41,551 nucleotides of DNA from Saprospiraceae bacterium (GTDB lineage: Bacteria; Bacteroidota; Bacteroidia; Chitinophagales; Saprospiraceae). The stretch covers positions 1 to 41,551 of the forward strand of contig JAJTEZ010000020.1 in NCBI GenBank assembly GCA_021298335.1. The letters run 5' to 3'. The position numbers were made by a program, and so were the translations under genes. This document shows, piece after piece, positions 30,373 through 40,841 of this stretch. Under the pieces are notes generated by a model. It was not told where the DNA came from, did not search any database, and saw nothing but the letters and a program-made list of their open reading frames with translations. The stretch's first letter is position 1. Each line of letters starts with the position of its first letter.

Positions 30373-31248
30373 TTGAAAAAAGTATTAATCACAGGGGCTG
30401 CAGGTTTCATCGGCTCCCACTTGTGTGACAGATTTATCCGGGAAGGCTACCATGTGATCGGAATGGACAATTTAATCACAGGCAATCTGAAAAACATTGA
30501 GCATCTGTTCCCCCTGGAACATTTTGAATATTATCATCACGATGTTTCTAAATTTGTGCATATTCCTGGCAATCTGGACTATATTTTACATTTTGCGTCG
30601 CCCGCAAGTCCGATTGATTATTTAAAAATGCCTATTCAGACTCTCAAAGTCGGCTCATTAGGGACACACAATCTATTGGGTCTGGCCAAATCCAAAAATG
30701 CGAGGATCCTGATCGCCTCTACTTCTGAAGTGTATGGCGACCCACTGGTGCACCCACAAACAGAAGAATACTGGGGAATGGCTTACCACACATACCACGG
30801 CCTGGAAACCCGAATTGTCCGCATTTTCAACACCTATGGACCCAGAATGCGCATGGAAGACGGCCGCGTACTGCCCGCTTTTTTTACACAGGCCATTCGC
30901 GGAGAAGGTCTGACAGTGTTTGGTGATGGTTCTCAAACCAGGTCCTTTTGCTATGTGGATGACCTGGTTGAAGGGATTTATCGCCTACTTCTCAGCGATT
31001 ACCCTTACCCCGTGAATCTGGGCAATCCATCAGAAATCACGATTTTAGAATTTGCTCAGGAAATCCTTCGACTGGTGGGTAATTCAAAAGCCTTTATTGA
31101 TTATCGCCCTTTGCCCGTAGATGACCCAAAACAACGAAAACCAGATATTTCAAAAGCACAATCGCTCCTGCAATGGGAGCCTGGTGTCAACAGAAGTGAA
31201 GGTCTGGAAAAGACCTACGCCTATTTTGCTTCTATCGTTGACAAATAG
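30373..31248 (+). pseudogene. UDP-glucuronate decarboxylase-like SDR lacking its active-site segment
   Basis: This is an extended short-chain dehydrogenase that, when intact, converts UDP-glucuronate to UDP-xylose. It shows the NAD site [64 protein letters not shown] and [14 protein letters not shown]. After EEYWG it jumps directly to MAYHTYHGL. In the family about 22 residues lie between these, including the catalytic Y-x-x-x-K (Y-D-E-A-K). The frame is kept, so 291 residues result instead of about 313. Without tyrosine and lysine the protein should be inactive; I therefore list it as a pseudogene although it is open. It starts with TTG at 30373; no in-frame ATG lies nearby. Confidence 0.82.
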
Positions 31249-31391: not shown

Positions 31392-32609
31392 ATGTCTCCA
31401 TTAAAGCAAAAAATGGAAGGGTATAATTTGCCGCAGCAAATCATGCAGTTGGGATTGTATCCATTCTTCCGTACAATTGAGTCTGAGCAGGATACCGTGG
31501 TAAAAATCGACGGTCGGGATGTGCTGATGTTTGGCTCGAATAGTTATCTTGGACTGACTAACCATCCTAAATTGAAGGAAGCATCCATCAAGGCGATTGA
31601 GAAATATGGGTCAGGATGTGCAGGCTCTCGTTTTTTGAATGGCACACTTGACATCCACCTGGAACTGGAAGAAAAGCTAGCAAGATATGTAGGAAAAGAA
31701 GGCGCATTGGTCTTTAGTACCGGATATCAGGTAAACCTCGGCGTTATCTCATCCATTCCTGGAAGGCATGATTACCTGATCCTGGATGACCTGGATCACG
31801 CCTGTATCATCGATGGAGCCAGGCTTTCATTTGCCAAGGTGATGAAATATAGCCACAATGACATGGACTCGCTTGAAAAAGCACTAAGTCGTTGTGAATC
31901 TGACAAAATCAAGCTAATTGCCATCGATGGTGTATTTAGCATGGAGGGGGACATCGCCAACTTGCCTGAAATTGTCCAGCTGGCTGAAAAGTACAATGCC
32001 TCCATTATGGTTGACGACGCTCATGGACTTGGTGTATTAGGCACAAATGGCGCGGGTACTGCAGACCATTTCGGATTGACAGACAAGGTAGACCTGATCA
32101 TGGGTACATTCAGTAAATCACTGGCAAGCATAGGCGGCTTTATAGCCGCAGATAAAACCACCATCAACTTTTTAAAACACAATGCGCGTTCATTGATTTT
32201 TAGTGCCAGTATCGCGCCGGCAAACGCGGCAAGTGTGATTGCAGCAGTTGATTTGATTCAAGAGGAGCCTGAACGTATACAACGTCTGTGGGACAATACA
32301 GAATATGCCCGAAAAAAGTTAAAAGAAGCAGGATTTGATACGGGGCATTCGGTGACTCCCATTATCCCCCTTTTAATCAGAGATGATTATAAGACGTTTC
32401 AACTCACAAAAATTGCCCTAGATCGGGGGGTATTTGTAAACCCTGTTGTTTCTCCGGCAGTGCCCAGTACTTCATCTCTCATCAGATATTCTCTGATGGC
32501 CACACATACCAGAGAGCAAATTGACCATTCAGTAGACGTCCTAAAGTCAATTTCAGAAGAAATTGGTGTCTTTGACAACAAAGAACACAGGGTCTTTTAC
32601 CAACCCTAA
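31392..32609 (+). CDS. spt: serine palmitoyltransferase
   Basis: This is a PLP-dependent alpha-oxoamine synthase that condenses serine with an acyl-CoA or acyl-ACP to 3-ketosphinganine, the first step of sphingolipid synthesis. The order of motifs is that of bacterial Spt: FGSNSYLGL, GSGCAGSRFLNGT, DDLDHACIIDGAR, IDGVFSMEGD, DDAHGLGVLG, the PLP lysine in GTFSKSLASIGG, and NPVVSPAVPST near the end. It differs from the related glycine C-acetyltransferase (Kbl) and BioF in these blocks. I chose the ATG at 31392 (MSPLKQKM); the frame extends upstream to a TTG at 31320 without conservation. It is followed by genes for the next three steps of ceramide synthesis and phosphorylation, which supports the assignment. 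Confidence 0.9.
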   Translation: MSPLKQKMEGYNLPQQIMQLGLYPFFRTIESEQDTVVKIDGRDVLMFGSNSYLGLTNHPKLKEASIKAIEKYGSGCAGSRFLNGTLDIHLELEEKLARYVGKEGALVFSTGYQVNLGVISSIPGRHDYLILDDLDHACIIDGARLSFAKVMKYSHNDMDSLEKALSRCESDKIKLIAIDGVFSMEGDIANLPEIVQLAEKYNASIMVDDAHGLGVLGTNGAGTADHFGLTDKVDLIMGTFSKSLASIGGFIAADKTTINFLKHNARSLIFSASIAPANAASVIAAVDLIQEEPERIQRLWDNTEYARKKLKEAGFDTGHSVTPIIPLLIRDDYKTFQLTKIALDRGVFVNPVVSPAVPSTSSLIRYSLMATHTREQIDHSVDVLKSISEEIGVFDNKEHRVFYQP

Positions 32610-32620
32610 GAAACTCTGCT

Positions 32621-32628
32621 TATCTTTG
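32621..32628 (+). promoter_or_regulatory. putative -7 element in front of the ceramide operon
   Basis: TATCTTTG at 32621-32628, with a T-rich TTTT at 32595-32598 some 22 bases upstream. It lies between spt and the GNAT gene, 41 bases before the ATG at 32670, so the downstream operon may be transcribed separately from spt. Confidence 0.5.
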
Positions 32629-32669
32629 TTGAGTACTGAATTATCAAAGATCAACAAAACCTAATATAC

Positions 32670-33794
32670 ATGGGCATCCAGATTCGGGAGGTACAATTCT
32701 CTCAAGGCATTAGTGAATTTATTAATTTCCCTCACGACTTGTATCAGGATGACCCCTTTTATGTGCCCGAGATCTATATTGGCCAAAAGGACATGATGAA
32801 TCCCGAAAAATATCCATTCCACCTGTATGGCAATGCAAAATATTACCTTGCAAGCCGGGATGGTAAGACAGTAGGCAGGATCGCAGCCATTTCCAATCCC
32901 AATTACAACGAACACCACAACTGTAAAGTTGGCTTTTTTGGTTTTATGGATTTTATTGAGGATCAAGAAGTTGTACATGAATTACTGGAACAAGCAAAGG
33001 CGTTCGCCCGTGAGAACGGAAATGAATTCCTGATGGGGCCTACAAATTTCACGACAAATGAAACCGCTGGTACACTCGTGGAAGGCTTTGAGGAATCGCC
33101 TAAGCTAATGATGACCTACAACAAACCTTATTACGGGAGAATGCTGGAAGCAGAGGGTCTGAATAAGGAGATGGATTTATACGCGTATATGATTTACACC
33201 AAAAACGCTTCAGAAAAATCTCTCCGTCTTGCTGAAGCCGTAGAATCCCGACTGGCATCAAGAGGCATTACTATCCGCAGCATCAAACTGAAGGATATGG
33301 ATGAAGAAGCCAGGAAAATCCAAAAGATTTATAACCAGGCCTGGCAAAAAAACTGGGGATTTGTTCCGTTTACAGATGCGGAATTTGAGTACCTGAAAAA
33401 CGACCTAAAAATGCTGGTTGACCCAGCTTTCACCTATATCGCTGAGAAAGATGGGGAAGCGATTGGCTTTGGCATTACCCTGCCCAACATCAACGAAATT
33501 TTGATTAAAAACAAACGAGGGAGATTATTTCCCTTTGGTATATTCCGACTACTTTTGGGCAAAAAGTCCTGCAAAACAGTTCGGGTACTGGCGTTGGGAG
33601 TATTGGAAGAATACAGGAAAGCAGGTATAGAAGCTATATTCTTTGCACGCAATATCCGAGAGTCAAAAAAGAGAAACCTGTTAGGTGGCGAAGCATCGTG
33701 GATTCTTGAAAGTAACAGCGCCATGAGGGCGGCAGCAGAGCGTCTCAATGGCGAGAAATACAAAACCTACAGATTATATAAAATGTCTTTATGA
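32670..33794 (+). CDS. GNAT-fold acyltransferase, candidate bacterial ceramide synthase
   Basis: This is a 374-residue protein that belongs to a large GNAT-like family widespread in Bacteroidota. The N-terminal half (residues about 1-180) has FFGFMDFIED, FLMGPTNFTTNETAGTLVEG and MMTYNKPYY. The C-terminal half carries a GNAT core with AYMIYTK, FGITLPNIN and the CoA-loop LALGVLEEYRKAGIEAIFF. In Caulobacter the ceramide synthase bCerS is a GNAT-annotated protein of similar size encoded near spt; this gene directly follows spt and precedes a CerR-like SDR, so N-acylation of a sphingoid base is the best guess. Function by context, not by proven homology. Its stop overlaps the start of the next gene (ATGA). 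Confidence 0.8.
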   Translation: MGIQIREVQFSQGISEFINFPHDLYQDDPFYVPEIYIGQKDMMNPEKYPFHLYGNAKYYLASRDGKTVGRIAAISNPNYNEHHNCKVGFFGFMDFIEDQEVVHELLEQAKAFARENGNEFLMGPTNFTTNETAGTLVEGFEESPKLMMTYNKPYYGRMLEAEGLNKEMDLYAYMIYTKNASEKSLRLAEAVESRLASRGITIRSIKLKDMDEEARKIQKIYNQAWQKNWGFVPFTDAEFEYLKNDLKMLVDPAFTYIAEKDGEAIGFGITLPNINEILIKNKRGRLFPFGIFRLLLGKKSCKTVRVLALGVLEEYRKAGIEAIFFARNIRESKKRNLLGGEASWILESNSAMRAAAERLNGEKYKTYRLYKMSL

Positions 33795-34792
33795 ATTCAA
33801 CAGGAAGGGAAACCATTCTGATTACAGGAGCCAATGGATTCATCGGGGGATTTTTAGTGGATGAAGCGTTGAAAAGAGGTTTCAGGGTGGTTTGTACTCT
33901 CCGGTCCTCCAGCCAGTCATCAGAACTGGAATCCCGAAATGTTACTCTGATCAGGACCGACTACTCACAACCGCAACAACTTGCAGACATTTTCATCACT
34001 GAAAAAGTAAAATATGTCATCCACAATGCAGGACTGACCAAGGCATCGTCACTGGCACAATATAACGAAGCGAATGTTACTTTGGTGCAGCATTTGATTG
34101 AAGGATGCCGTCTGGCAGGCTTACCCTTGCAGTCATTTGTCCAAATCAGCAGCCTCGCAGCTTACGGACCGGCTGATTTTCAGCATTCGGGGATTGTAAA
34201 GGAACAAAGCCCACCCCACCCTGTTACGGCGTATGGCAAAAGTAAGCTGGCAGGAGAGCAATGGTTACGTCAGCAGTCAGATATTCCGTGGATCATTCTC
34301 CGCCCCACCATTGTGTACGGACCCGGCGAAAAGGACCTGTATACAGTCTTCCGCATGATCAAAAACCACCTGGATGTGAGACCTGGCCTGGTGCCTCCAA
34401 AACTCACCTTCATCTATGTAAAAGACCTGGCAAGGTGTGTCCTTGATGCAATGAGCCACGGACGCCGGCACTCAGGGTACTTTGTGACTGATGGCAATGT
34501 TTACCACGGCGATGCATTGAATGGGTTTATCAAAGAAAACCTGAATACCTGGGCCATTTCATTCCGAATTCCGGTTATGTTGATTTCTGCCCTCGCAGGA
34601 ATTTCTGAATGGTGGGCGCAAAAAAAGGGAACTTACCCTGCCTTAAACCGCGACAAAGTCAATGAAATTAAAGCAAAAAGCTGGGTATGCGTCATAGCTC
34701 CCCTTCACGAACTTGGATTTAAGTCGGAATATAATCTGTCAAAAGGCATCCGTGAAACGATTCAATGGTATAAAGCGAACAAATGGCTTTAA
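33791..34792 (+). CDS. extended SDR, candidate ceramide reductase (CerR-like)
   Basis: This is an extended short-chain dehydrogenase/reductase of 333 residues. It has the NAD(P) loop ITGANGFIGGFLVDEAL, the SSLAAYGPA block and an intact catalytic YGKSK. It reads like the sterol/dihydroflavonol-type epimerase group. In the Caulobacter ceramide pathway CerR is such an SDR and reduces the 3-keto group after acylation; position directly behind the acyltransferase and in front of a lipid kinase supports that role here. The start codon overlaps the previous stop by 4 bases. The last 10 bases overlap the next gene, so the genes are translationally coupled. Other substrates of SDRs cannot be excluded. 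Confidence 0.82.
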   Translation: MNSTGRETILITGANGFIGGFLVDEALKRGFRVVCTLRSSSQSSELESRNVTLIRTDYSQPQQLADIFITEKVKYVIHNAGLTKASSLAQYNEANVTLVQHLIEGCRLAGLPLQSFVQISSLAAYGPADFQHSGIVKEQSPPHPVTAYGKSKLAGEQWLRQQSDIPWIILRPTIVYGPGEKDLYTVFRMIKNHLDVRPGLVPPKLTFIYVKDLARCVLDAMSHGRRHSGYFVTDGNVYHGDALNGFIKENLNTWAISFRIPVMLISALAGISEWWAQKKGTYPALNRDKVNEIKAKSWVCVIAPLHELGFKSEYNLSKGIRETIQWYKANKWL

Positions 34793-35754
34793 TGAATGAT
34801 GCTGCTGTGACTCCGGAAAAGGAGGAGGAAGTAAAAAAACATCTGGTTTTTGTGGCAAATCCGTTTTCGGGTACCCGAAAAAAAAATAATTTGAGTGAAG
34901 TCATTGAAAAATTTCTGGACCACACTATCTATACATACGAGGTGAAATTTACTCAGGCTCCAGGCCATGCGACACTTCTTGCATCTGAGGCTGCTAATCA
35001 TGCAGCGTTTGCAGTCATAGCGGTTGGGGGCGATGGCACTATCAATGAGGTGGCAGGTGGCCTGCTTGGTACTGAGACAGCGCTGGGGCTCCTGCCCTAT
35101 GGTTCAGGAAACGGTTTTGCGTATCACCTGGGAATCCGAAGAAGCATTCAGAAGGCTTTTGAAGTCATAAACCGAGGCCACAGCCAATGGATTGATACGG
35201 CAACGGCAAATGGAAAGCTTTTCTTGAACGTTGCAGGACTTGGACTGGATGCAACCGTAGCTTATAAAACAAAATTTAAATCACGAAGAGGATTTCTCCC
35301 CTATTTTCTCCAAACCATTAGAGAAAGTATTGGCTTCAAATATATGGATTTGAGGATTGAATGCCCTCAGGGCTTCACCCAAGGAACCACCAGTGAAACA
35401 TCGGATGTTCAATGCAAAAATTGGCATGGAAGCTATGCCATGGCAGTAATTGCAAATGGATCAGTGTATGGATATGGCTTCTATATTGCCCCGGCAGCGA
35501 AACTCAGTGACGGCTTGTTTGATGTACTTCTGGTAAAGAAAGTACCTGTATTTCGTTATGTTTTGCTGGCTACCCGAATGCTGAACCGATCATTTCATCA
35601 AAGTCCAATCGTTGAATATTTCCGTACGCCGGAAATTCGAATAGAAATCGTTCATCCAGAATACGCACATTTGGATGGTGAGGGATATCCCGCAGAATCA
35701 TCCACCGATTACAAAATCAGCAAAGCATCAATGCGAATTTTATCTTATGGCTAG
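34783..35754 (+). CDS. YegS/DAG-kinase family lipid kinase, candidate ceramide kinase
   Basis: This is a diacylglycerol-kinase-catalytic domain protein of 323 residues in the YegS/BmrU class. The nucleotide site GGDGTINEVAGGL and the GSGNGFAYHLGI loop are intact, and the C-terminal beta-sandwich domain ends with HLDGEGYPAE, which holds the usual acidic residue. The family phosphorylates lipids such as diacylglycerol, sphingoid bases or ceramide. Coming fourth after Spt, GNAT and SDR, ceramide or sphingoid-base phosphorylation is the natural guess. The ATG at 34783 overlaps the SDR; an in-frame ATG at 34792 forms a TAATG junction and is an equally good start. Confidence 0.87.
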   Translation: MALMNDAAVTPEKEEEVKKHLVFVANPFSGTRKKNNLSEVIEKFLDHTIYTYEVKFTQAPGHATLLASEAANHAAFAVIAVGGDGTINEVAGGLLGTETALGLLPYGSGNGFAYHLGIRRSIQKAFEVINRGHSQWIDTATANGKLFLNVAGLGLDATVAYKTKFKSRRGFLPYFLQTIRESIGFKYMDLRIECPQGFTQGTTSETSDVQCKNWHGSYAMAVIANGSVYGYGFYIAPAAKLSDGLFDVLLVKKVPVFRYVLLATRMLNRSFHQSPIVEYFRTPEIRIEIVHPEYAHLDGEGYPAESSTDYKISKASMRILSYG

Positions 35755-36631
35755 TTATTTCATACTCATTACCTGTATTTTGCTGAATGCACTGATAGGT
35801 GTAGTATTCAAACTGTTTACCAAATATAAAATTGACCCGCTTCCGGCAATTACAATCAACTATTTTGTGTGCTTTGGAACGGCAGCCGTGGTCATGGGTA
35901 AAAATCCGATACCGGCGGGGCTAATGCAAACAACCTGGTTACCCTATGCAATCCTGATGGGATTGCTGTTTATTCTGATTTTTAATCTGGTAGCCTTGAC
36001 TGTACATCATTTTGGAGTGGTTATAGGTACTATTTTCCAAAAAATGTCACTGGTAGCCCCTACGTTGCTAGGGATAGTATTTTTCGGTGAGTCTTCTGGA
36101 TGGCTGAAATGGGCCGGCATTGCCCTGGCCATCCTTGCCATCACATTACTGAGTCTGCAGAAGAAGGCAGGCGCTGAGCAACAATCCACTAAATCTGGCT
36201 TGGTCTGGCTTTTCCCATTACTAACCTTTGCCGGTTCCTGCCTGATAGATTCCGGCTTATTTTTGATTGAACATTACAAACTGGCATCCAGTTCTGACGC
36301 TTCTTTTATTGCCACGCTTTTTCTCACTGCGGGTTTTACCGGTATGCTTGTGCAGGCGTTTCGCCCTGCTAAACTTGCCAGCTTAGTACATAAAAAAAAT
36401 GTGATCGCTGGTGTTGCATTAGGTATTCCAAACTTTTTTTCCATCCACCTGATTCTTGTGGCGTTGCACCACGGATGGGAAGGATCTCAATTGTTTCCCA
36501 TCAACAATACCGGGGTATTACTTGCTTCCGTAGCTATTGGAACACTGGTGTTTCATGAAAAGCTGCACTGGTTAAAAATCGCAGGTATCGGTGTGGCTAT
36601 CCTCTCGATATTATTGATCGCATATTCCTGA
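35747..36631 (+). CDS. EamA (DMT superfamily) transporter
   Basis: This is a polytopic inner-membrane protein of 294 residues with about ten transmembrane helices in two EamA repeats (helices from FILITCILLNALIGVVF; second repeat from LVWLFPLLTFAGSCLIDS). DMT transporters export or import small metabolites; the substrate is not readable. The ATG at 35747 overlaps the stop of the kinase gene by 8 bases, so it is coupled to the ceramide-type genes. YigZ follows after 5 bases. The frame is open to 35675 inside the kinase gene but those codons have no function. Confidence 0.88.
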   Translation: MASYFILITCILLNALIGVVFKLFTKYKIDPLPAITINYFVCFGTAAVVMGKNPIPAGLMQTTWLPYAILMGLLFILIFNLVALTVHHFGVVIGTIFQKMSLVAPTLLGIVFFGESSGWLKWAGIALAILAITLLSLQKKAGAEQQSTKSGLVWLFPLLTFAGSCLIDSGLFLIEHYKLASSSDASFIATLFLTAGFTGMLVQAFRPAKLASLVHKKNVIAGVALGIPNFFSIHLILVALHHGWEGSQLFPINNTGVLLASVAIGTLVFHEKLHWLKIAGIGVAILSILLIAYS

Positions 36632-36636
36632 CTTTC

Positions 36637-37293
36637 ATGTCGGCTACCTTTCAAACGATAGCAGGGCAGACAGTCTGTGAATTGAAAGAAAAAGGTTCAA
36701 GATTTTTTGGCATAGCTGTTCCATTTTCCCATGAAAAGGAGTTGTCAGAAATACTAACTGTTCTCAAAGACACCTATCCTAAAGCCAGCCACTATTGTTT
36801 TGCATATAGAATTGGAGTGGATGGGACTAAATTTCGGGTGAATGACGACGGGGAGCCTTCTGGTTCTGCAGGCAGGCCTATTTTAGGAGCCATCGACAGC
36901 GCAGGGCTGACAAACGTTCTGGTGGTGATTGTGCGATATTTCGGAGGTACAAAACTAGGAATTCCAGGCCTGATCCAGGCGTATAAGGAAACGGGGCGTT
37001 TGGTACTTACTCAGGCAGAAAAAGTCACTAAGGAATTTAAAATTGGGCTATCCATGCGGTTTAGCTACCAGAGAATGGGAGAAATCATGGGAGTATTGAA
37101 GGAACTTCATATTGAAATTCAGCGCAAAGATTTCAACAGCGATTGCCACGTTGTCTGTAGCTTACCATTGAAACAACATACAGAGCTCGTAACAAGTATC
37201 AAAGCAGCCATTCTCGGATGGACAGCTGACAGGGTGAATGAGTCTACTGAGGTGGCCGACTGCTCTTTTGAACTACTCGATATCAGCTTTTAA
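36637..37293 (+). CDS. YigZ/IMPACT family protein
   Basis: This is a 218-residue member of the UPF0029/IMPACT family. The N-terminal domain has the family signature FRVNDDGEPSGSAGRPIL and VIVRYFGGTKLGIPGL at about residues 65-115. A C-terminal ferredoxin-like domain (DUF1949) follows. The eukaryotic IMPACT protein regulates the GCN2 kinase; the bacterial function is unclear, and some resemblance to elongation-factor domains suggests a translation role. It ends the operon. Its end faces the end of the OmpH-like gene with only 9 bases between and no hairpin. Confidence 0.9.
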   Translation: MSATFQTIAGQTVCELKEKGSRFFGIAVPFSHEKELSEILTVLKDTYPKASHYCFAYRIGVDGTKFRVNDDGEPSGSAGRPILGAIDSAGLTNVLVVIVRYFGGTKLGIPGLIQAYKETGRLVLTQAEKVTKEFKIGLSMRFSYQRMGEIMGVLKELHIEIQRKDFNSDCHVVCSLPLKQHTELVTSIKAAILGWTADRVNESTEVADCSFELLDISF

Positions 37294-38005: not shown

Positions 38006-40841
38006 TTAATCCAGTAAATCATCAAGTTCGTCATCAGATAGTGAAGAGAGTTCCTCCACCTCGATCAAATCATCCGAAAGCTGGGACTTCCTCTGCTGCA
38101 GGGAAAGGATTTTTTCTTCAATGGTGCCCGCAGAAATAAAACGCAAAACAAAAACGTTTCTGCTTTGTCCTATCCTGTGTGCCCGGGCGATAGCCTGCTT
38201 TTCAGCAAAAGGATTCCACCAGGGATCCAAAATCAATACGTAATCAGCTGCTGTGAGATTCAAGCCTGTTCCGCCCGCTTTGACTGACAGTAAAAATACA
38301 CTCACCTGATCTTCTTCCTGAAAGCGCTTGACCGACAGATCTCTTTCAGCAGGAGACATGGCACCGGTGAGCATGACGTAACTGATGCCCGTAGAGTCCA
38401 TCCATTCAGCATACAAATTCAAATGGGCAACAAACGAAGAAAACACCAGCACCTTATGATCTGCCCGCGTGATGGAAAGGATGGTCTCCTTTACCTCTTC
38501 AAATTTTCCTGAATCACCCGCGTATTCCCCTTCACAAAGTACGGGGTGATTGGCAATCTGCCGTAGTCGCATGAGCGCCGACAGCACATGAAATCGATAT
38601 TGTCCGGATTGTTTGTTGATTCCCAAAAGGTGATTTCTTGCCGCAGATTTTTCTGTCTGAAAAATACGGGCCTGTTCCTCCGACATTTCCACATAGCGTA
38701 CTTCTTCCGTCAAATGCCTCCTCGTCTTTTTCTTTCTCAATAGGCAGTTGAAAATTCCGACGAAAGAAATCATAGGGTCCCAGAATCGAGGGGTTGATAA
38801 ACTCCATTTGGGCCCATAGGTCGGCCAGTGAGTTTTCAATCGGCGTACCGCTAAGCGAAATCTTATGGGCTGACTGAATTTGTAGCAATTTCTGAAAAGA
38901 CTGTGAGTTTTTGTTACGAATGGCCTGACTTTCATCCAGAATGAGGTAGGTAAATACCAGTTTTGACAACATCTGAATATCTGCCATGGCAGTCTGATAC
39001 GTAGTCAAAACAATGTCATATGCCGGTATCGAGGAAGCTACTTTTTTCCGGTCAGTCCCCCTGTACACCAGGACCTGGAGAGAAGGAGCATATTTTCGAC
39101 ATTCGTTTCGCCAGTTGGTCACTAAAGACGCAGGAACCACAACCAGTGCAGCCAGAGCTGTACGGCCTGTCTGTATGACTTCGCCAAATAAGTCCAGTTG
39201 TACACCCGCTTTTGGAAGAGTAGTAGAAGTCTGCAACTGATTTTTTGTATCTAAAAGCACCGCGATGGTTTGCAGGGTCTTACCCAGTCCCATATCATCA
39301 GCAAGGCACGCTCCAAGACCCTGCGTTCTGTGCGTGCGAAGCCACTTCACACCCTCCTCCTGATAAGGACGAAGTATTGCCTTCAACAGTGACAACTCCA
39401 AAGGTTGATCATTCTCAGAATGTGAACTCTCGCCCGCATCCCAGGTAAAACCCTGGCTTTCCAGTAGCGGAAAATGTAGCTTTGAAATCCGCCAGGTATC
39501 GCTACTTTGCACAGCAAAAGACAGTACGGGCTCATAAATGGCAAAATATTCTTCAGGAATGATCACCCATTTGCCATCTTCTACCGGGAAAAACGGATTG
39601 CGGTTACGGATATAAGGCAAAATCTGGACTAGTGGAAACGTCAAATCTCCAATTTCAACCAGTCCCTGTAAATCAAACCAGTCGCCATCAAAGGTGATAT
39701 CTGGCCGTATGGTCAACGATTCCGGAATAATCTCCCTGCCATCAATATCAGGAAACTGTAATGTAAAGTGATTTCGGAGGTCCCTGGCACGTCGGCTTGC
39801 CCATTCCAGTGTCGAATAGACCGTCTCACCATAACAATACCTGCCATGACCATCCGATTCCGAATCCAGTTGCTGAAGAATTTCTGCATATCGTTCTTCT
39901 TCCTCTGCATTGCGGCAAAATTCATGAATCTGAATTTCTCCACCTTCATTGAAATAAATCCTGTTTTTTCTACTTGATTTTTCTGAAGAGGCAAATGTTG
40001 CTCCTCCGTAGTGAAACATGATTTCAGCCAGATAGCGATTTTTGAAAAAGTCGAAGAAAAAGGAAAGCACAACACGCTGTAGACTGCTGTAAGATTGAAT
40101 CTGAAATCCTTCTGCCTCAATCTGTGCTTTTCCCATCACTTCTTTGATAAAACCGGAAAAATAGTCTTTGGAAATCCTGTCAGGAATGAAGATAGATTTC
40201 TTTGTTAAGAATGGTTTTATTTTGGCTGAATTGAGACCTTCCACTGAAAAAACATGATTGTCTAAGAGTATCACAGATGGCTGGTCTGCGAGGATCAACA
40301 CCCGATGTGCTGAAGGACTAATTTTCTCATCCTGCGCAAGTAAATGCAGCGAGTATTGAATACCAGTTTGTGATTTTACAAATTGAAGGTGAGGTATCAA
40401 TTCGTCCTGCCCAAAATATAATGCAACATCACAAGCCTTGATTTGCCGTTTCAAATTGAGGCAAATAGTAACTTCATGCTTCTTACAAATTTGTAAAAAA
40501 CGTGTCATACGCCTGTCAATTACCGCCTGGATTGTTTTTGAAATTCGGGTATCTCCAAAGAGAGAAGTAAGCGTCTCCTTTTTCTTTTTATTCCGATTCA
40601 GGGACTCTTCGATTGCAGCAGGTTGTAATTCTTCGCAAAACTGGAGCAACTGCGCATGAATTTCAATTTGAAAATCAGGAATATACGTTGACAATGTATC
40701 AAGCCTGGCAGACGCTTGAATGTATGCAGGCCTTTCCTGTGCATCCAGGTTGACCAGGAACGCTGTAGGGTATATGAAGGGGACTCCCTCCTGAGAACAA
40801 AGAGAATAGACAATTTTGTAGGCAGCCGGATGCTCGCTCAT
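38006..40841 (-). pseudogene. SNF2-family DEAD/DEAH-like helicase, frameshifted by an internal deletion
   Basis: This is a Swi2/Snf2-type ATPase that would act on DNA or nucleoprotein. The 40841 frame holds an N-terminal region of about 480 residues without clear domain, then the first RecA-like half: LRPYQEEGVKWL, Walker A ADDMGLGKT at about residue 515, LILDESQAIRN at about 635, and SGTPIENSLADLWAQMEF. It goes off frame after KEKDEEA at about 38720. The second half continues in another frame to 38006: LTEEVRYVEMSEEQ, LMRLRQIANHPVLC, VLVFSSFVAHLN, LSVKAGGTGLNLT and RAHRIGQSR. In relatives about 26 residues stand between DEEA and LTEE, including the conserved P-F-I-L-R-R-T-K block; they are absent. 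So a deletion of roughly 75-80 bases, not a multiple of three, has disabled the gene. Confidence 0.88.

Follow-up and report, generated by a model that had tools for sequence, protein, structure and literature searches.

The stretch of DNA considered here, referred to as the window, comprises 41,551 nucleotides of contig JAJTEZ010000020.1 from the Saprospiraceae bacterium assembly GCA_021298335.1, and includes a run of four genes on the forward strand that are the subject of this analysis. The first, spt (31392..32609, with its start taken as the ATG at 31392 within an open reading frame listed as opening at TTG 31320), encodes a serine palmitoyltransferase (Spt) of 405 residues. It is followed by genes for a 374-residue tandem GNAT protein, the candidate bCerS (32670..33794), a 333-residue extended short-chain dehydrogenase/reductase (SDR), the candidate CerR (33791..34792), and a 323-residue lipid kinase of the YegS/DgkB type (34783..35754). 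The GNAT and SDR genes overlap by 4 bases and the SDR and kinase genes by 10, or by a single base if an alternative kinase ATG at 34792 is used. In Pfam, the four products are Aminotran_1_2, Acetyltransf_1, Epimerase and DAGK_cat with YegS_C, respectively. A first-pass annotation, made from the letters of the window alone, had described these four genes, their common strand, both overlaps and an intact Y-x-x-x-K motif in the SDR, and all of these features were recovered. It is quite probable, from the sequence comparisons described below, that spt and the GNAT and SDR genes form a ceramide-backbone operon, joined by a lipid kinase of the same lipid system. Ceramide is a lipid familiar chiefly from animals and fungi.

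Spt scores 684.5 bits with the NCBIfam model NF047600 (SerpalmtaseCFB), for which the cut-off is 640, and by that cut-off it is classed as a serine palmitoyltransferase. Its best matches in the PDB are the serine palmitoyltransferases 8guh and 3a2b (E 4e-159). The window's genome, which is 84% complete and in 218 contigs, contains one Spt match and one GNAT match (both at E <= 0.001) and one PF00781 protein.

The assignment of the GNAT protein relies on relatives in sphingolipid clusters. A sequence search of the PDB gave a best E of 0.12, to an unrelated protein. Full-length homology was found to a published bCerS counterpart, YghO of Escherichia coli (34.7% identity over 377 columns, E 2e-72, in the E. 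coli PN43 record). The yghO gene of E. coli BL21(DE3), ECD_02850, is listed with Caulobacter crescentus CC_1154 among the genes required for dihydroceramide synthesis (PMC9386255, which also gives E. coli B an spt cluster of its own). We infer from locus numbering that CC_1154 is bCerS (CCNA_01212), because two papers number CpgB differently, as CC_1160 and as CCNA_01218. The GNATs of the Roseomonas and Sphingomonas Spt clusters are likewise similar over their full length (35.4% and 33.9%), and full-length relatives also occur in Spt-containing clusters of Klebsiella, Rubrobacter and Streptomyces, as well as E. coli. Among the best 80 of 587 relatives, the closest named one, at 62%, is from an uncultured Saprospiraceae bacterium (L171). 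An AF2 model built from an alignment of 30 sequences (pLDDT 93.2, pTM 0.90) has tandem GNATs as its best structural matches, led by 7q3a (Z 25.8, 303 residues aligned, root-mean-square deviation 3.2), and N-myristoyltransferases, which are long-chain N-acyltransferases, also match it with a Z of about 16. The likeness is one of predicted fold, from which no function follows.

A tree of 39 GNATs indicates that two kinds, distantly related and about 30% identical, occupy one and the same position, after spt and before the SDR gene, in Bacteroidota. The second kind is present in eight loci (L098, L101, L103, L106, L115, L121, L124 and L136), and these eight proteins share a 100/100 branch with GNATs from Bacteroides finegoldii, Prevotella and Vescimonas; the window's kind lies outside it. 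The protein named as the Bacteroides CerS, BF9343_4218 (PMC10865984), may belong to the second kind.

The SDR protein carries GANGFIG at residue 13 (GxxGxxG) and YGKSK at residue 148 (YxxxK), and is a member of the extended SDRs. It is homologous to the SDR of the published E. coli sphingolipid cluster (27.5% over 302 columns, E 6e-26); the window's other SDR matches that protein only at E 2e-4 over 26 residues. Identity to spt-linked SDRs of Bacteroidota is 28-50%, and the protein groups with them in a tree, within a branch (97/97) that also contains SDRs from two Bacteroidales, Parabacteroides and B. finegoldii. In Bacteroides thetaiotaomicron, another enzyme, BT_0972, has been shown to reduce 3-ketosphinganine (PMC9278070), and the order of reactions may therefore differ between species.

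The order spt-GNAT-SDR is conserved well beyond the window. A set of loci fetched by Spt similarity alone (L078-L137) comprises 56 loci from the same order and four from the same class, of which 58 are usable, with 3 kb or more of sequence beyond spt. In 53 of these 58 a family GNAT gene begins no more than 1 kb past the spt stop codon, and 51 also have a family SDR gene following on that strand at a distance of up to 3.5 kb. The seven exceptions to the trio are L079, L080, L097, L117, L119, L127 and L132. The SDR match is weak (24-27%) for L131 and L133, which are counted among the 51, and in a few, such as L096, L126, L128 and L129, the SDR gene does not directly adjoin the GNAT gene. The first-pass annotation had proposed conservation of gene order in relatives as a check, and had named as a refutation the placing of the GNAT and SDR proteins in families of different established function; the order was conserved, and the searches made found no such family.

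A second set was selected by GNAT similarity and consists of 80 named loci, the best 80 of 587 relatives from an alignment scan, 77 of which have enough flanking sequence. This set is biased, as the search alignment was built from GNATs of spt clusters; within it, 64 loci have spt ahead of the GNAT gene and in the same orientation, and the three genes occur in order in 57. The clustered trio is found in named records of Sphingobacterium, Pedobacter, Mucilaginibacter, Dyadobacter, Runella, Chitinophagaceae and Saprospiraceae, among them Sphingobacterium alimentarium (L176) and Pedobacter jeongneungensis (L229), in which the trio has the same order and strand as in the window. Neither of these two stretches contains the kinase, although that of L176 ends 2.4 kb after the GNAT gene; in L229, inositol genes follow the SDR gene. 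The same order is also present outside the Bacteroidota in annotated Rubrobacter and Streptomyces records, and, by weaker matches and with Spt in two pieces, in Nonomuraea. In Sphingomonas, Roseomonas, Klebsiella and E. coli, genes for Spt, an acyl carrier protein (ACP) and the GNAT form a looser cluster.

C. crescentus, in which the genes concerned are spt (CC_1162), the acyltransferase (CC_1154), an epimerase-type gene (CC_1164) and the ceramide kinase gene cpgB (CC_1160), resembles the window in having Spt, a GNAT-type acyltransferase, an SDR and a diacylglycerol kinase-type kinase encoded in one region. The window's GNAT and SDR proteins are 35% and 27% identical to those of the E. coli cluster, which are listed with the Caulobacter genes (PMC9386255). 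The window differs from the Caulobacter locus in that neither an ACP nor an acyl-ACP synthetase is encoded next to spt, and in that its genes form a tight run in one order.

One study (PMC11334938, ISME J) describes spt, bCerS and CerR as often clustered, but also reports, with reference to earlier work, that Bacteroidota which produce sphingolipids do not encode them near one another. The trio is mostly a tight cluster in one order in the Bacteroidota loci analysed here, almost all of them from outside the Bacteroidales. This clustering provides strong bCerS and CerR candidates in the culturable genera Sphingobacterium, Pedobacter and Dyadobacter.

Genes for inositol lipids probably form a second part of the system. 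In B. thetaiotaomicron, BT_1522-BT_1526 have been characterized for phosphoinositol-dihydroceramide synthesis, with BT_1522 the phosphatidylinositol (PI)-dihydroceramide synthase and the GtrA-type BT_1524 without effect (PMC9246714). The same five gene kinds are present together in the window's genome on another contig, C71 (L165 7540-11645), where genes for an AUR1-like PAP2 protein, MIPS, PgpA, GtrA and a short PIPS lie in a row adjoining rpsB/tsf. The PIPS-like frame (L165 11187-11645, complementary strand) is 153 residues long, and its counterparts in L166, L168 and L090 have 233-234. Among the genus mates, G578 has the same cluster (L166) and G608 has parts of it on two contigs (L167 and L168). 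Genome searches found no MIPS match in G385, G566 or G474; a search for PAP2_3 found none in G385 and only short matches near 1e-6 in G566 and G474, that in G566 spanning 59 positions at 1e-6. Both G385 (L082) and G566 (L081) nevertheless keep spt-GNAT-SDR-kinase. The spt gene of B. thetaiotaomicron (BT_0870) is also away from its inositol cluster; the two parts are similarly separate in the window's genus, but there the kinase is on the ceramide side.

In sister genera, the gene kinds of BT_1522-BT_1526 instead lie around spt-GNAT-SDR. Six such loci (L085, L088, L090, L091, L094 and L095) have the arrangement spt-GNAT-SDR-MIPS-(PgpA)-GtrA-kinase, with PgpA not detected in L091 and with the gene at the GtrA position in L094 matched by the L084 query instead. 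Five of the six are preceded by genes for PIPS, a DUF4833 protein and an AUR1-like PAP2 protein; the sequence read for L091 begins too close to spt to include them. For L090 and L092 the gene names were confirmed with Pfam on the proteins, and other loci were named by BLAST. Relatives of the L092 DUF5686 protein, DUF4833 protein and fatty acid hydroxylase occur in L087, L089, L092, L109, L110 and others, and the hydroxylase of such sphingolipid loci may hydroxylate ceramide.

MIPS is encoded in 21 of the 58 Spt-selected stretches, and MIPS, an AUR1-like protein and PIPS together in 17; among the 77 named GNAT-selected loci, 24 have the trio plus all three. Many Pedobacter, Mucilaginibacter and Chitinophagaceae loci have inositol genes adjoining spt. 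L032, whose Spt is very close to 8guh/3a2b (E 3e-222), has no MIPS within its 18 kb. Homologues of the inositol cluster are described as absent or highly infrequent in Sphingobacterium (PMC9246714), and the eight named Sphingobacterium loci here end 2.4-3.0 kb after the GNAT gene, which is too short to bear on this. Loci joining spt-GNAT-SDR to inositol genes would constitute a one-locus route to phosphoinositol-dihydroceramide. A literature search found no description of such a joined locus, a weak negative given that most subscription journals were not covered.

In the tree of Spt sequences, the window's genus is nested in a group (21 members, 92/86, not starred) to which the kinase-bearing joined loci also belong. 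With the branching inside the group open, it is likely, but no more than that, that the inositol genes left the operon in this genus while the kinase gene stayed.

The kinase scores 145.9 bits with TIGR00147 (cut-off 118.65), which places it in the YegS/BmrU/DgkB family, and has the motifs GGDGT at residue 82, GSGN at 107 and DGE at 298. Its nearest relatives in the PDB are diacylglycerol kinases, with DgkB closest, and by these comparisons it is of the DgkB/YegS type. Of 36 loci from the window's family, the window itself excluded, 11 have a kinase in the stretch that follows spt, as does none of the 22 other loci; in one of the 11, L096, it is 9.7 kb away. One of the 77 named GNAT-selected loci (L220) contains it, 10.8 kb from the GNAT gene and in a frame too short for inclusion in the tree described next. 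In a tree of 31 kinases, the window's protein, those of four genus mates and six from the sister genera are joined (100/98) as orthologues, apart from 19 other Bacteroidota kinases. This clade, with and without inositol genes, provides a clean test case for the role of the kinase.

Orthology to the Caulobacter ceramide kinase CpgB was considered by means of a proxy, a Roseomonas kinase that is CpgB-like by gene order only (PMC11324152) and that belongs to a Caulobacter-like cluster. BLAST found nothing significant between this protein and the window kinase in either direction (E 0.74 and 1.3), and orthology to CpgB is not supported by this route. As to linkage with cpgA- or cpgC-like head-group genes, the kinase gene's neighbours in the window are, by Pfam, the EamA and UPF0029 genes described below. 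Another system close by description is the dihydrosphingosine kinase PG1348 of Porphyromonas gingivalis (PMC9045371), a lipid kinase from the Bacteroidota that acts on a sphingoid base.

Spt would condense serine with an acyl thioester to give 3-ketosphinganine, the tandem GNAT protein, as bCerS, would add the second acyl chain, and the SDR, as CerR, would reduce the 3-keto group to yield dihydroceramide. These backbone steps had been proposed in the first-pass annotation, and the Spt cut-off, the homologies and the gene order support them. It had also read the genes as lying in pathway order. If acylation comes first, the arrangement does fit, but how genes are arranged says nothing about the sequence of reactions; acylation before reduction is disputed in the literature, and the window does not decide the matter. 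An AUR1-like enzyme, encoded elsewhere in the genome, would then transfer the phosphoinositol group of PI onto dihydroceramide, with release of diacylglycerol (DAG). Because the head-group genes lie elsewhere in the same genome, phosphoinositol-dihydroceramide is a likely end product, at least as likely as ceramide phosphate. For the kinase, two substrates come into question: a sphingolipid, whether ceramide or a sphingoid base, and the DAG released in that transfer.

Both substrates are plausible, each being given about the same credence and each somewhat short of an even chance, and some other role for the kinase is less likely. In the first case, the protein would be a ceramide or sphingoid-base kinase making ceramide-1-phosphate, a second bacterial kind with DgkB/YegS rather than CpgB descent. 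The kinase gene overlaps the SDR gene, and in the window's genus it is found among the ceramide genes, apart from the inositol cluster (L165, L166, L167 and L168). Moreover, G385 and G566 keep it beside the ceramide genes without MIPS or a comparable AUR1-like gene, which favours a sphingolipid substrate. Against a sphingolipid substrate stand the lack of significant similarity to the Roseomonas kinase, the diacylglycerol kinases as nearest solved relatives and the lack of a kinase after spt, in the stretch read, in all 22 loci outside the family. No further ceramide-phosphate head-group gene was recognized beside the kinase, although no search was aimed at one.

In the second case, the protein would be a DAG kinase that returns the DAG freed by the AUR1-like enzyme to phosphatidic acid. 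The position of the kinase in the six sister-genus loci, after a run of ceramide and inositol genes, favours DAG, and release of DAG follows from the reaction of BT_1522. The place of DgkB as nearest relative in the PDB, and the fact that the kinase is the sole PF00781 protein found in this 84%-complete genome, point the same way. However, no kinase was seen in the sequence read at any of the 22 loci from outside the family, including those that carry inositol genes close to spt, and the two genus mates mentioned above retain theirs beside the ceramide genes although MIPS and a comparable AUR1-like gene are missing. In vitro, CpgB acts on ceramide as well as on DAG (PMC10331486), which is compatible with a ceramide kinase role here, and sequence alone will thus not settle the substrate.

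The first-pass annotation's description of a complete ceramide-phosphate locus consequently claims too much: the kinase is of the DgkB/YegS type and its sister-genus orthologues stand in a run that would release DAG. It is conceivable, though less likely than not, that a Saprospiraceae-like clade recruited into its ceramide operon a DgkB/YegS kinase, not closely descended from CpgB, as a second and independent bacterial ceramide or sphingoid-base kinase and kept it after the inositol genes had moved or been lost.

Readings in which the first three genes are not for ceramide synthesis fare far worse. Bacteroidetes make sulfonolipids by a pathway thought to be similar to sphingolipid synthesis (PMC9304779), and the locus might in principle serve capnine synthesis, with a first enzyme using cysteate. 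This is very improbable: Spt matches the cysteate-C-fatty acyltransferase 28eh in the PDB at E 1e-76, as against 4e-159 for serine palmitoyltransferase, and is above the NF047600 cut-off. Being much closer to Spt than to cysteate-C-fatty acyltransferase structures, it is predicted to use serine rather than cysteate, and the sulfonolipid reading was rejected on the family score and the PDB match scores. That the GNAT and SDR genes are an unrelated acetyltransferase and a sugar epimerase gene beside spt by chance is scarcely credible and was rejected on synteny, for although Pfam gives both only generic domains and family GNATs also occur away from spt, the same gene order recurs in 51 of the 58 loci chosen by Spt, and two annotated records from Actinomycetota show it as well.

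Several observations do weigh against the ceramide-backbone operon. The gene families, the conserved order, the kinase orthology and the presence of the inositol genes are shown, whereas we infer the enzyme activities, the co-transcription and the lipids themselves. The NCBIfam scan gave no family for the GNAT protein, and the proven Caulobacter proteins were compared only through relatives. Caulobacter CerR is periplasmic (PMC11087976). The GNAT family is present in 237 of 247 phylum genomes (E <= 1e-20), as against nine of 247 for Spt (E <= 1e-150, a cut-off that misses more distant Spt sequences such as those of L042-L049, at 44-48%), and because the family is so much commoner than close Spt, a GNAT alone shows nothing. 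Family GNATs with no spt in the stretch read were found in Ensifer, Vescimonas, Bacteroides finegoldii, L045 and L046. The trait is also patchy: a close Spt (E <= 1e-125) occurs in 71 of 396 order genomes and 39 of 395 class genomes, and is thus missing from 325 of the former. Even among the five genus mates, G474 (L080) has spt alone at this position, and G608 (L079) lacks the GNAT there, its locus reading spt-SDR-kinase.

The operon may extend past the kinase. In the window and in four of the five genus mates compared, the kinase gene is followed on its 3' side by an EamA-type gene and then by a YigZ-like gene. In the window, the EamA-type transporter gene (35747..36631, forward strand, EamA in Pfam; its start may be at 35675) is a possible further member, and a role as a flippase for a lipid or precursor is only a guess. 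The YigZ/UPF0029-like gene (36637..37293, forward strand, UPF0029 in Pfam) is probably functionally unrelated to the ceramide operon. Directly upstream of spt is a gene for a sugar-nucleotide-type SDR (30373-31248, forward strand), whose relative at 78-80% identity is on the opposite strand in the genus mates at L078 and L082; it is thus probably outside the operon. Further downstream, on the complementary strand, is a split SNF2-type helicase gene (38006-40841), with the SNF2 part at 38532-40841 and the helicase C part at 38006-38935 in overlapping frames; the split reflects a misassembly or else a disrupted gene.

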